Source: Nitrospirae bacterium RBG_16_64_22
GTDB taxonomy: Bacteria > Nitrospirota > RBG-16-64-22
DNA length: 40,011 bases
Assembly (NCBI GenBank): GCA_001803795.1
Contig: MHEK01000105.1
Coordinates: forward strand, 1-40,011
Direction: 5' to 3'
This document shows, in pieces, positions 8,861 through 13,957 of the stretch (position 1 is the stretch's first letter; each line of letters opens with the position of its first letter). Below the pieces are notes generated by a model that was not told the DNA's origin, did no database searches, and was given only the letters and a program-made list of their open reading frames with translations. Both the position numbers and the translations under genes were made by a program.

Positions 8861-11044
8861 TCATTCCCGCGGAGTCTCGATCGCGAGATGTTCCCGGTCT
8901 TCCGGCCGCGCTTCCTCGGGGGGCGGCGGCATCCGGATGGGCAGCATGATGACGAACGTCGTCCCGCGTCCCGGCGTGCTCTCTACGTCAATCGTACCGG
9001 AGTGCTCCTGAATGAGGCGGTGGACGATGGAGAGGCCGAGCCCCGTCCCCTTCCGGTCTTTGTCCCTTGTCTTCGTCGTGTAGAACGGCGTGAATATCCG
9101 TTCGATCTGGTCGGGGCGTATTCCCTTTCCCGTGTCTGCGATGGTCAGGCGGGCGAAGGGGACGTTCTCCGACACGACGAGCCGCGTGGCGATCGTGATC
9201 CCTCCGCTTCCCTCGACGGCTTCGACGGCGTTCAGGATGAGATTGATCAAGACCTGCCGGATCTTGTCCTCGTCCATGGGGACATGGGGCAGGGACTCGT
9301 CAAGATCGGTCTGGAGTTCGATCGACCGTTCCCGGCACGTGGGCTTGAGAAGGACGACCACGCTCTCGATGATTGTGTTGAGCGGCTGTTTCCTGAGCCG
9401 CGGCGGCTTGGGCCTGCTCAGGTTGATCAGTTCCGTGATCAACCGTTCGATTCGCGCCATTTCCCGGATGGCGGCCTGGTAGTAGGTGCGGACGAAGTCC
9501 TCCTGGGTCCGGATCTGCGGCAGGAGCTGAAGAAACATCTTGATGCTCGTCAGGGGATTGCGGATCTCGTGCGACAATCCCGACACCACGTCTTCGATCC
9601 CCTTGAGCCGATCGATCCGCTCCAATTGTTTTTGGGCGTCCAAGTGGAACTCGTGGAGTCTTGCGTTCTCCATGGCGACCGCCGCCTGGGACGCGAGAGT
9701 CTCCAGATACTTCAGCTCGTCGGCCGTGTACGGCCGCCGGGACTCCTTCTGGCCGATGCCGCAGAATCCGATCAGCCGCCCGTTCTCCTTGTTTGAAGGC
9801 TCGCGGAACGCAAGGAGAAGGGCGAAATCGTCCGCCGCGAAAAGCTGCTCCACGGAACCGGCGGCCTCCTGAAGACGGAGTCCCGGCACCTCTTCGCGAA
9901 GGATGAGGGGGTTCGTTTTCAGGACCTGGCAGACGGCGTGTTCGGGCGAGATTCCTCCGTCCTTGGGCGAGAGACGGGCGGGAGGGTGGGCCGCGGACCG
10001 CCGGAGGTAGCCGGTTGAGTCCTCGACGAACAGCACGCACGACTTCGCGCCCGTGGCTGTCGCGATCGTGGCGGCGAGCTTCTGGCCGATCTCCCTCAGG
10101 TCGAGCATCTGGACGACGGCGCGCGCGAGCTCCGCCAGGGATTGCGTCACCTCGTGGCTCGAGGCGAAGAAGGACCTCGAAACGGCCGACTCGATCCGCG
10201 CCTTGAGGCGGTAGAAGGCCACGGCGATGAGCCCGAACGCCGCCAGAAGGATGGCCGAGAAGCCGGGGTCGATTGCGCCGAAGAAGCGTTTCTGCGCGAA
10301 CAGCGCGATACCGAAGAGCGGGAGAAGGACAAGAAGGAGCGTGACGCCGTACGCAAGCCCCCTCTTCATGATTGTGTGAACGTCCAGAAGGCGGTATCTG
10401 ATCAAGATGTAGCCGTTTGCGGCCGTTACGAGTGGAACGAGGATGTTTCCGTACGGGAGAATGGATATATCGTACCAGAGTGGGAAGTTTGTGCTTCCGC
10501 CGATGTACCCCACGACTGTTGAAATCAGAATGTACTCCAGTTGAGTTCTTCCGATACCAGTGGTTTCCCTTCTTCGCTTGAACATCATGGCCGTCGATAG
10601 GGCCAAGTATGCGAAGAAGTAGGCGAGGTAGAACGGAAAGGCAACTCCAGGCGTCGGCCAGTAGGGGGTGACAGGAGTCTGGTGCGTACCTTGAATGAAG
10701 AAACCGGTCGGATCGAGAAGCAAGAAGAAAACCCCCAGGGAATAACCCGAGGCGAGTAGTTTCGCGTGGTGCTTCGGACGTCCAAAGAGGGTGGTAACGT
10801 GATGATAGTGGAGAACCGGGATCATGGTAGCCCCGGCCATCATCAACCTGGCAAAGAGAAGGGCCTGCGGAACGCTGTCGGCCGTTAGCCAGAGAAAATA
10901 GAAACCGCTCCAGAAAGAAAGACTGACGCAGTAGGCGGCGTACGTACGGTGTCTTGGGTCTTCCGGCTTCTGGGCGAGGACAAATATTCCGAGGAACGTA
11001 TTGATGACCGCAATGACGAGAGCGGTGACTGCAAAGAAGCTCAT
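8861..11044 (-). CDS. Membrane histidine kinase with N-terminal multi-TM region and GAF-like domain
   Basis: This 727-residue sensor kinase begins with a hydrophobic region of about seven or more membrane helices (residues 1-275, histidine kinase N-terminal 7TM type). A GAF-like domain follows (about 300-460), then a HisKA domain with H-box SHEIRNPLTS (His492) and an ATPase domain with N-box NLILNAVEAV (Asn605), G1 DTGKG at 637 and G2 GTGLGLS at 666. All catalytic boxes are intact. It starts 4 bp after the stop of the PilZ-hydrolase-methyltransferase gene, so the pair is almost certainly one transcript. No response regulator lies in the window, so its target is unknown. The likely stimulus is membrane or cytoplasmic and sensed by the TM or GAF parts. 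Confidence 0.93.
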   Translation of the reverse strand: MSFFAVTALVIAVINTFLGIFVLAQKPEDPRHRTYAAYCVSLSFWSGFYFLWLTADSVPQALLFARLMMAGATMIPVLHYHHVTTLFGRPKHHAKLLASGYSLGVFFLLLDPTGFFIQGTHQTPVTPYWPTPGVAFPFYLAYFFAYLALSTAMMFKRRRETTGIGRTQLEYILISTVVGYIGGSTNFPLWYDISILPYGNILVPLVTAANGYILIRYRLLDVHTIMKRGLAYGVTLLLVLLPLFGIALFAQKRFFGAIDPGFSAILLAAFGLIAVAFYRLKARIESAVSRSFFASSHEVTQSLAELARAVVQMLDLREIGQKLAATIATATGAKSCVLFVEDSTGYLRRSAAHPPARLSPKDGGISPEHAVCQVLKTNPLILREEVPGLRLQEAAGSVEQLFAADDFALLLAFREPSNKENGRLIGFCGIGQKESRRPYTADELKYLETLASQAAVAMENARLHEFHLDAQKQLERIDRLKGIEDVVSGLSHEIRNPLTSIKMFLQLLPQIRTQEDFVRTYYQAAIREMARIERLITELINLSRPKPPRLRKQPLNTIIESVVVLLKPTCRERSIELQTDLDESLPHVPMDEDKIRQVLINLILNAVEAVEGSGGITIATRLVVSENVPFARLTIADTGKGIRPDQIERIFTPFYTTKTRDKDRKGTGLGLSIVHRLIQEHSGTIDVESTPGRGTTFVIMLPIRMPPPPEEARPEDREHLAIETPRE

Positions 11045-11048
11045 GATT

Positions 11049-13067
11049 TCAGGCCTTCACGGCGGCAATGAGGATGGCTTGATTTCCGAAGGAGATCCTC
11101 GATGACAAGGGGACCGCTCCCGACGCTTCGAGCAGAGCTTCCAACTCAAGTTGGGAGAAGAAGCGGTAGAGGCCATGGGTTTCCTTGACGGCGATTCCTC
11201 CGGCGTTGTTCAGCAGTGTTCGCGCCTGGTCGATCTGTTCGTGACTCCGGGCTTTCTCCGCGACATTCCGGTATATCTGGGAGCAGTCCGCCATCGGTTT
11301 CAACGTGCTGATCACCATCCGCCCCTCGGGCTTGAGGACTCTGACGAATTCCCTCAGCAGGCCGAGCGGATCATTGAGATACGAGAGCACGAGATTGCAG
11401 ACGATCTGATCGGCCGTGCCGGAGCGGAGCGGGAGAGATGCGTCAAGGTTGCCTTGGATGAATGTGTAAGAACCCGGCGCCGCTTCTCCAGCCGGTCTGC
11501 GCATTGGCTCCAGGGTCTTGCTCGTGTTCATGGCCGTCAGGAGGGCCTCGTGCACGAAATCGATTCCGACGTAAAGAGAAAGAGGGCGTCTCCCTGAGAG
11601 GAAGAAAAAGGCAAGATTGCCCGAGCCGCATCCGGCGTCCAGGAGGATCATAGGTCCTGCGGAGGGGCCGATCATTTCGACGACGTCGCTTGCCAACTGT
11701 TGATAGTCTTCGACTTGCCGGATAAGCGTGAAATCGGATAGATAGGACCTCCAGAATTCTCTCTCGTCTTCCATTCTCTTGTCCATGTGCAATCTCATCC
11801 GGTCCTTTTCGATCCTTCGCTGTGTTACAACTTCCCGCAATGACGGTGATTGAAAAGCGAGAGGGACGGATGGGAGCAGGCTTCGATGTGTTTGCTCAAC
11901 CAGATGTTGAAAGGCAGCGGAAAGGTCCTTCGGATTCTCCTCCAGCCTGTGCATGGACTGATCCAGCAGATACAGAGTCTTGCATTCCGAAGAAATGCTC
12001 TCCAGGGCCAACTTGACCGCATCGAGAGAGACCCATGTATCTCTCAACCCTGCAATGACATGCACGGGGACCTGGGTCGACCGGCTGTCTTCGAGCGTTG
12101 CTTGTAGATTGTGGAAATTGAAGGCGACGGAATTGCCCAGAAAATGGTCGGCTTTTATCGAGTGCCCAAGCACGTTCATGGTTCCGTAGTCATGTCCCCT
12201 CAGGTGGCGATCGACGAGATCTTCCAAGTGGACTGCCGTGAGCGTGGCTTGCAGGTCCACGACGGGTACGAGCAGAGCCAGCGCCCGGATGCGGGGGTCG
12301 CAGCTTGCGGCCTTGAGGGCGGACCGGGCGCCGAGGCTCGCCGCGCAGACGACGATCGGGTACGCCTGGAAGGAGTTCTCGACGTAGTCGAGGGCGGCGT
12401 GGAGGTCCTCCTCGTGCTGGGAGAGGGTGAAGTCGAGGATGCTCCCGTCGCTTTCCCCGACGCTGTCGGTCGTGTCGTACCGGAGGATGTGGAAGCCGTT
12501 CGCGGCGAATGTGTAGGCCGGAAGAAGGGCGGTCGTCTTGTGCTCTCCGTACGCGGGAGGCATGACGACGAACGGCGTGTCGGGCTTGTACATTTCCCCG
12601 ACCGGATGGTCGTAGAACGCGACGATCCTCTTGCCCCGCCGGTTCGCGAACGAGATCAGATCGCTCTGAATGGTCGTCGGGACCTTCCGCCCGCCGATCC
12701 GGCTCCTGTCGAGAAGAAGGTCCGCGAGATGTCGCCGGAGTCTTGTCTTTTCGGGCCCGTCTTCGCCCGCGAACGAAAACCCGTAGCGGCAGGAATTCGT
12801 CTTGGGATCGCGGGCGGACCAGCAAAGCCGGCCGGGAAGCGCGATCCCGTCGTTCCCCGGAATCTTCAGGACGAGGACGCAGTCGGCGAGGTCGACGGGG
12901 GACGAGCACGCGAGGCCGATTCCCCGGTCGCTCACGTCGATCGACGTGCAGGATTGGGGGAGCGGGCGAGGGCGGCCCGGATCCGAGGGAGGCTCAATAG
13001 CGACGGGGACGGACAAGAGAAGGCGCGTGGAAAAGCGCTTCTCTTTTACCCGATTGAGGACGGACAT
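11049..13067 (-). CDS. Three-domain fusion: PilZ, LuxD-like alpha/beta hydrolase, SAM methyltransferase
   Basis: This 672-residue protein has three parts. Residues 1-120 fit a PilZ domain with both c-di-GMP motifs, RxxxR at 11-15 (RFSTR) and DxSxxG at 44-49 (DVSDRG). Residues 125-400 resemble LuxD, the acyl-ACP thioesterase of luminous bacteria. The apparent nucleophile is Ser244 (CAASLGAR), with Asp343 (GLRDTW) and His373 (SMHRLEENP); the 99 and 30 residue spacings are close to those of the LuxD triad as I recall it. Residues 455-672 are a class I methyltransferase with motif I LLDAGCGSGN near 475. A charged helical linker joins the last two parts. The family matches are by eye. I infer a c-di-GMP-controlled enzyme acting on an acyl substrate; no luxA, luxB, luxC or luxE is nearby. 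Confidence 0.85.
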   Translation of the reverse strand: MSVLNRVKEKRFSTRLLLSVPVAIEPPSDPGRPRPLPQSCTSIDVSDRGIGLACSSPVDLADCVLVLKIPGNDGIALPGRLCWSARDPKTNSCRYGFSFAGEDGPEKTRLRRHLADLLLDRSRIGGRKVPTTIQSDLISFANRRGKRIVAFYDHPVGEMYKPDTPFVVMPPAYGEHKTTALLPAYTFAANGFHILRYDTTDSVGESDGSILDFTLSQHEEDLHAALDYVENSFQAYPIVVCAASLGARSALKAASCDPRIRALALLVPVVDLQATLTAVHLEDLVDRHLRGHDYGTMNVLGHSIKADHFLGNSVAFNFHNLQATLEDSRSTQVPVHVIAGLRDTWVSLDAVKLALESISSECKTLYLLDQSMHRLEENPKDLSAAFQHLVEQTHRSLLPSVPLAFQSPSLREVVTQRRIEKDRMRLHMDKRMEDEREFWRSYLSDFTLIRQVEDYQQLASDVVEMIGPSAGPMILLDAGCGSGNLAFFFLSGRRPLSLYVGIDFVHEALLTAMNTSKTLEPMRRPAGEAAPGSYTFIQGNLDASLPLRSGTADQIVCNLVLSYLNDPLGLLREFVRVLKPEGRMVISTLKPMADCSQIYRNVAEKARSHEQIDQARTLLNNAGGIAVKETHGLYRFFSQLELEALLEASGAVPLSSRISFGNQAILIAAVKA

Positions 13068-13238: not shown

Positions 13239-13814
13239 CTACCCAGGTCCCTTGACCCACCAATCGCTCTTGTCCTTGAACCACCAGAGGGAGGAGTCCG
13301 TCTCCAGGATCGTCTCGGCTAATGCACGGGCCTGGTCGGTGAGAAGGCGCTTCATGGAGAAAGCGAGCCACTCGTCGGCGTACTTGTTTCCCAGGTCCTT
13401 GTACTCCTTGAGGGCCAGGATCATCTCGATCTGGTCCGCGTCATGGGCGAGGCGGGCCTCGGTCGTCTCCCCGGCGTTGTATTCCGCGATGAGAGACTTG
13501 ATCTCTCCGCCGAAGGGGAGCGTTTCGGCGAGGTCGGCAACCGCTTTTTCCTCGTTGGGCACGACGTACTTTTTGTTGACGTAGTTGAGGTCGCCCGTCC
13601 GGGCTTCCGGGAGGTCGTGGAAGAGGCAGAGCTGGACGAGGCGGTCCACGTTCGCGCCGGGCGTGATCTTGCCAAGAACGTACCCGATGCAGGTGGTCCG
13701 AAACGAGTGCTCGGCGACGGATTCGGCCCCGGAGCCCAGGAACTGGAACCCCGACCGGGGGGTCCGTTTGAGCATTCCCGCTTCGAATAGGAAATTGGCC
13801 AAGTTTTCCATCAT
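13239..13814 (-). CDS. HD-domain hydrolase (YfbR/5'-nucleotidase-like)
   Basis: This protein of about 191 residues belongs to the HD superfamily of metal-dependent phosphohydrolases. It shows the family opening NFLFEAGMLKRTPRSGFQFL, then the metal-binding His in SVAEHSFR, the HD pair in CLFHDLPEARTGD and the final Asp in LAHDADQIE. The likely substrates are nucleotides such as deoxynucleoside monophosphates, as for YfbR, but this is family knowledge only. I place the start at the ATG-ATG pair (13814), which matches the usual N-terminus. The track uses a TTG four codons upstream, which has a GGGGTAG-like ribosome site and remains possible. It lies upstream of the PilZ fusion gene on the same strand, 171 bp away, with its own promoter likely. 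Confidence 0.87.
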   Translation of the reverse strand: MMENLANFLFEAGMLKRTPRSGFQFLGSGAESVAEHSFRTTCIGYVLGKITPGANVDRLVQLCLFHDLPEARTGDLNYVNKKYVVPNEEKAVADLAETLPFGGEIKSLIAEYNAGETTEARLAHDADQIEMILALKEYKDLGNKYADEWLAFSMKRLLTDQARALAETILETDSSLWWFKDKSDWWVKGPG

Positions 13815-13957
13815 CTTGGAAGCCAATACTACCCCGATGAAGACCCGAAGTCAGCCGAATAGATAGAGCGATCCCATAAGAGAAATCAATCCGCCGATTG
13901 GCTATGCAAATCGCGTGCTTTCGTTGTGAAACCCCCCTCTTTTTCATTGACCCGGGC

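Follow-up and report, generated by a model that had tools for sequence, protein, structure and literature searches.

A PilZ–LuxD-like hydrolase–methyltransferase fusion paired with a histidine kinase in Nitrospirota, and its possible place in fatty-acid signalling

The stretch of DNA analysed here (the window) comprises 40,011 nucleotides and is contig C105 of a 2.38-Mb assembly, 89% complete, of Nitrospirae bacterium RBG_16_64_22. On its reverse strand, the gene of a protein that joins a PilZ domain, a LuxD-type alpha/beta hydrolase and a class I S-adenosylmethionine (SAM) methyltransferase is followed after 4 bp (11045-11048) by the gene of a membrane histidine kinase (Table 1). ilvD converges on this gene pair from one side, the gene upstream of the fusion lies about 170 bp away on the same strand, and neither a regulator nor a fatty-acid gene adjoins the pair in the window. 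c-di-GMP genes of the same genome include 14 GGDEF matches and 7 PilZ matches. An initial annotation, made from the letters alone, had placed two open reading frames 4 bp apart here and had read them as a PilZ domain with RFSTR and DVSDRG motifs, a LuxD-like hydrolase with a Ser244-Asp343-His373 triad, a class I SAM methyltransferase and an intact 7TM/GAF histidine kinase; the gene coordinates agree with it, profile searches recovered each of these domains, including all four of the kinase, and none was reassigned to an unrelated family.

Table 1 Features of the gene pair and its upstream neighbour (window coordinates).
Feature	Position	Strand	Evidence
PilZ–LuxD-like hydrolase–SAM methyltransferase fusion, 672 aa	11049..13067	-	ORF list, Pfam, homologues
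PilZ domain, aa 10-115	12723..13040	-	PF07238, 32.6 bits (cut-off 22.5)
LuxD-type alpha/beta hydrolase, ~aa 140-400	11868..12650	-	PF02273, 71.3 bits; profile against 1tht, 1.2e-39
Ser244 codon, predicted nucleophile	12336..12338	-	Aligned with LuxD
Asp343 codon, predicted triad acid	12039..12041	-	LuxD alignment and survey
His373 codon, predicted triad base	11949..11951	-	LuxD alignment and survey
Class I SAM methyltransferase, aa 456-651, motif I LLDAGCGSGN	11115..11702	-	PF13489/PF08241, 54-57 bits
Membrane histidine kinase, 727 aa	8861..11044	-	ORF list, Pfam, conserved adjacency
HisKA_7TM input region, aa 9-222	10379..11020	-	PF16927, 60.8 bits
GAF domain, aa 315-458	9671..10102	-	PF01590, 25.4 bits (just above cut-off 22.4)
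HisKA, SHEIRNP at aa 491	9410..9592	-	PF00512, 49.6 bits
HATPase_c, aa 591-703, DTGKG and GTGLG boxes	8936..9274	-	PF02518, 99.6 bits
HD_3 family protein (YfbR-like)	13239-13826	-	

The PilZ motifs found by motif scan (aa 11-15 and 44-49) fit the RxxxR and (D/N)xSxxG patterns, from which we predict that the domain binds c-di-GMP. The Pfam Acyl_transf_2 (LuxD) model matches aa 187-388 of the hydrolase part (cut-off 20.3 bits), and the closest solved structure is LuxD itself (1tht), both from the single sequence (3.6e-14) and with a family profile that covers nearly the whole chain and leaves the runner-up at 6.1e-17; in the alignment, Ser244, Asp343 and His373 fall opposite the S, D and H residues of LuxD, and the Ser244 position is conserved in the catalytic group of relatives and lost in the long forms described below. 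An AlphaFold model of the window protein from a four-row alignment had a mean pLDDT of 38, too poor to use. The methyltransferase part matches Methyltransf_11 and Methyltransf_23 above the Pfam cut-offs, none of the methyltransferase equivalog models reached its cut-off on the window protein or the relatives scanned, and the nearest structures found by profile include LahSB and juvenile hormone acid O-methyltransferase, both as weak matches. Apart from a similarity to mad2 that is generic for methyltransferases, a PADLOC search gave nothing, and a defence role was not adopted.

The initial annotation had allowed that the fusion might be an assembly join, which is ruled out because the same 672-aa protein, 89% identical, occurs with its kinase (87%) in an independently assembled genome of the same family (G002, locus L039). 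Between these two f1 genomes, the ratio of Jukes–Cantor-corrected dN to dS is about 0.20 for the whole fusion, 0.13 for the hydrolase, 0.17 for the methyltransferase, 0.44 for the PilZ domain and 0.21 for the kinase; the fusion is thus under purifying selection. A congeneric metagenome-assembled genome (G001, L038:4304-6260) has the same arrangement at 95% identity with the frame split in two by a 62-bp deletion within the hydrolase part, which is either real decay or an assembly fault. Fusions of the same kind are also present in single-contig genomes such as G054.

The fusion belongs to a family that is widespread in the Nitrospirota. A profile built from eleven relatives matched 101 of 396 genomes of the phylum at 1e-20, an upper limit for complete fusions because some weak matches are Rec-PAS or methyltransferase parts alone, and the fusion with its kinase is present in seven families (given here under anonymous labels, of which f10 is probably the Nitrospiraceae). 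Architectures range from a bare hydrolase-methyltransferase of 547-549 aa (L092, L093), through forms with one PilZ domain (window, L119, L120) and medium f10 forms with two or more, to long f10 forms of about 1400 aa, read where Pfam was applied as Rec-PAS-PilZ-PilZ-hydrolase-methyltransferase; f18 forms of about 750-800 aa have an N-terminal extension in which no PilZ domain was recognised (by Pfam in L081, by motif scan in all). In L119 and L120 the family profile and the S, D and H positions identify the hydrolase, which the Pfam LuxD model misses. At L098:7383-12308, a single 1641-aa open reading frame encodes PilZ, hydrolase, methyltransferase and histidine kinase in one protein. An exact-peptide scan that reached other phyla, and that detects close relatives only, returned the two congeners alone. 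Plasmid searches gave a LuxD on an Escherichia coli record as the only such hit, no match to the L119 protein, and generic kinases for the hybrid kinase of L120; the single match among viral contigs covered the methyltransferase part only.

A search for the pair in other genomes, which the initial annotation had proposed as a check, found the kinase adjoining the module in 47 of 51 loci, a set in which many loci come from one family and are not independent. For 45 of them the distance from the module to the start of a same-strand kinase gene downstream is -6 to 429 bp; in L095 and L097 the kinase gene starts at the end of the fusion gene before the contig ends. No kinase lies directly downstream in the other four (L083, L099, L100 and L101), two of which, L099 and L100, have a sigma-54 regulator directly after the module; at one locus beyond the 51, the kinase is within the same open reading frame as the module. 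The kinase is of 7TM-GAF type in the f1, f18 and f36 members and the double-PilZ forms that were read; the single long form analysed with Pfam is followed by a soluble GAF kinase, and the kinases of the other long forms are similarly short.

Other neighbours are more variable, and few neighbour clusters cross families: Rec-HD-GYP (f10 and f36), FabF (f36 and f12), acyl-CoA dehydrogenase (f29 and f22), a second kinase (f36 and f12) and one cluster common to f18 and f10; several more join f10 forms only to each other. FabF lies directly upstream of the module in L092 and L093, from two families, and passes its equivalog cut-off of 494 bits with 575 and 528 bits; an acyl-CoA dehydrogenase is upstream in L119 and L120, from two other families. 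Downstream of the kinase, f10 loci carry an NtrC-type (sigma-54) regulator with Rec-AAA-Fis domains and a Rec-HD-GYP protein with the HHExxDGxGYP motif, and a Rec-HD-GYP is also present in L092. L119 has the order PilZ-hydrolase-methyltransferase, HK-Rec-HK and Rec-HK from its domains, and L120 the same order, to judge from its layout and the matches of its kinases. When the window genome was searched with the sigma-54 regulator, numerous NtrC-type regulators matched, the best at 48% identity; with the HD-GYP query, the top Rec-HD-GYP, on contig C89, was 41% identical; none of these is assignable to the pair by sequence. Within that genome, the nearest relative of the Rec-HD-GYP from L092 is L126 (G000:C89:6533-7516), which lies near a PilZ-containing open reading frame (C89:5600-5902). 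L126 is a possible output partner of the window kinase.

The hydrolase triad is missing from one group of relatives. This group comprises eighteen rows, of the long f10 type or one related to it, which fall on one side of a single branch (support 94/82; 92% of bootstrap trees), with uncertain placement of the long-branch pair L099/L100. The serine position holds Asp, or Gly in two rows, and no Asp or His can be recognised at the aligned positions of the other two triad residues; most of the 18 carry changes in SAM motif I, with GCGxG kept in L094, L100 and L115 and GxGxG in L116. A single event is a good fit for the predicted loss of the triad and, mostly, of the SAM motif. RxxxR and (D/N)xSxxG are retained in at least one PilZ domain of 17 of the 18 rows (the exception is L100) and the adjacent kinase in 16; triad-less forms of about 1400 aa with a kinase are L041, L043-L048 and L111-L118. 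Two genomes (G019 and G054) have one triad-intact and one triad-less copy each, and in other genomes the profile search found only the catalytically dead copy.

For the window pair, the sequence supports competence of the hydrolase, methyltransferase and kinase, a c-di-GMP motif and a conserved pairing. Our favoured interpretation, to which we give a little less than an even chance, is that an enzyme gated by c-di-GMP produces a methylated acyl signal and its partner kinase reads it. The PilZ domain, to judge from its motifs, would bind c-di-GMP and gate the enzyme; the hydrolase, from its fold and triad, would release the acyl group of an acyl carrier protein or CoA thioester, a substrate suggested by the LuxD kinship and by the FabF and acyl-CoA dehydrogenase neighbours; and the methyltransferase, with SAM, would cap the released acid or a derivative to yield a small hydrophobic compound, for example a fatty-acid methyl ester. 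Methylation at the carboxyl oxygen is suggested by the weak structure matches, which include LahSB and juvenile hormone acid O-methyltransferase. The 7TM region of the kinase would then sense the compound, or the acyl pool that it reports, and pass phosphate to response regulators; in relatives these could be the adjacent sigma-54 activator and the Rec-HD-GYP phosphodiesterase, the latter closing a loop to the PilZ domain. We favour this synthesis-and-sensing interpretation because of the domains, the triad, the kinase pairing, the FabF, acyl-CoA dehydrogenase and HD-GYP neighbours, and the low dN/dS. What counts against it is that the window pair itself has no adjoining regulator or fatty-acid gene, that no methyltransferase equivalog reached its cut-off and that PilZ was not found in some relatives; moreover, one clade has lost the triad and mostly kept the kinase, so the pairing there needs no such catalysis. 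c-di-GMP-gated acyl chemistry feeding the kinase had already been suggested by the initial annotation and gains from this genomic context (kinase adjacency, FabF and acyl-CoA dehydrogenase, HD-GYP); the arrangement itself is not isolated and belongs to a widespread family.

An alternative interpretation is that the enzyme module acts as a receptor or scaffold, in which c-di-GMP, at the PilZ domain, and an acyl or SAM-like ligand in the former active sites would alter the contact with the kinase, which would relay the change. The 18-row clade without the triad, with PilZ motifs and kinase largely kept and with Rec and PAS domains at the N terminus, speaks for this and may itself be a receptor or scaffold, but overall we consider this interpretation unlikely because the window protein and the other groups retain both active sites, and because the comparison of the two f1 genomes shows tighter constraint on the hydrolase and methyltransferase than on the PilZ domain. 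We rate it as about equally unlikely that the enzyme alters an envelope lipid, quinone or similar housekeeping molecule under c-di-GMP control and the kinase monitors the state of the membrane instead of a dedicated signal: UbiE/MenG models do score 24-31 bits on the methyltransferase (39-42 bits in relatives) and the kinase input is embedded in the membrane, but the tight kinase pairing and the HD-GYP and sigma-54 outputs in relatives argue otherwise, and the annotated cross-family neighbour clusters include no recognised quinone gene and, of lipid-synthesis genes, FabF and acyl-CoA dehydrogenase alone. The methyltransferase and hydrolase could also be taken for the biotin-pathway pair BioC and BioH, since the BioC model gives the methyltransferase 46 bits and its cut-off is reached by no protein of this genome (89% complete); we consider this highly improbable and set it aside because the scores (TIGR02072, 46-49 bits) are far below the cut-off of 185 and are equalled by other methyltransferases of the genome, the hydrolase is LuxD-like, and the constant neighbour is a kinase and not a biotin gene.

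More speculatively, and in our view less likely than not, these genes may form an undescribed cell-cell signalling family of the Nitrospirota in which an f10 duplicate lost catalysis, kept its PilZ domains and a kinase partner, gained Rec and PAS domains and became a receptor for the signal that its ancestor produced. Genomes with the dead copy alone would be as expected of an eavesdropper if a receptor did arise from the enzyme in this way, and with its catalytically dead members the clade is a natural test case for such a change from biosynthetic enzyme to receptor. If the synthesis-and-sensing interpretation is right, the Nitrospirota, which include the nitrite-oxidising Nitrospira, would have a signalling system whose class of product can be predicted and whose c-di-GMP feedback is built in, and in which thioesterase, methyltransferase and second-messenger control lie on one chain.

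LuxD is the acyl transferase of the fatty acid reductase complex encoded by the lux operon of Vibrio and Photobacterium and works with LuxC and LuxE. The window hydrolase resembles it in fold along nearly the full length and in the aligned Ser-Asp-His triad, but is joined to a PilZ domain and a methyltransferase in a genome (89% complete) in which a search for LuxC gave no match, and against the NCBIfam LuxD equivalog the window protein reaches 74.4 bits and the best relative scanned (L092) 117.8, far below the 420 bits required; a lux-operon reading was set aside. The kinase recalls PrsK of the XrtA/PEP-CTERM system in its multi-TM/GAF/HisKA architecture, as do relatives with an NtrC-type regulator the PrsK/PrsR pair, and the equivalogs were missed by both the window kinase (TIGR02916, 99.1 bits against 300) and the L096 regulator (PrsR type, 417 bits against 503). 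In the diffusible signal factor (DSF) system, rpfF-rpfC-rpfG encode an enzyme acting on acyl carrier protein-bound chains, a kinase in the membrane and a c-di-GMP phosphodiesterase of Rec-HD-GYP type, and Nitrospirota relatives likewise have a kinase and a Rec-HD-GYP beside the enzyme; RpfF, however, has a crotonase fold and no PilZ domain, whereas the enzyme here is a LuxD-type hydrolase with a methyltransferase.

The phcBSRQ genes encode a methyltransferase, a kinase, a Rec-HK and a Rec protein (PMC8578825) and lie on chromosome 1 in C. necator (PMC2842291). PhcB of Ralstonia and Cupriavidus makes methyl 3-hydroxymyristate or 3-hydroxypalmitate, which PhcS reads. Residue R22 of PhcB is outside the methyltransferase domain (PMC6989110), and from the positions given for phcB R22 (2943477) and phcS L161 (2945312; PMC6989110, Table 1) we infer that PhcB is no longer than about 472 aa, a size beyond that of a methyltransferase alone. 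The window and its relatives share with Phc the succession of a SAM methyltransferase gene and a membrane histidine kinase gene, a likeness of layout, and the order in L119 and L120, with a PhcR-like Rec-HK, comes close to phcB-phcS-phcR; the Nitrospirota fusion differs in joining a PilZ domain and a LuxD-type hydrolase to the methyltransferase, and many relatives have sigma-54 and HD-GYP outputs with no PhcA known. We know of neither a Phc nor a DSF system with a PilZ–LuxD–methyltransferase chain, and a search of open-licence papers found none with PilZ and LuxD and none with LuxD and Nitrospira. The initial annotation's statement that no such system had been described therefore stands, within that literature, for the architecture and not for the logic, which has counterparts in phcBSRQ and rpfFCG. 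Our best reading is that the Nitrospirota pair would follow the same logic as these two systems with different parts: signalling by an enzyme and a kinase through fatty-acid chemistry is of a known kind, and its PilZ–LuxD–methyltransferase version looks undescribed.
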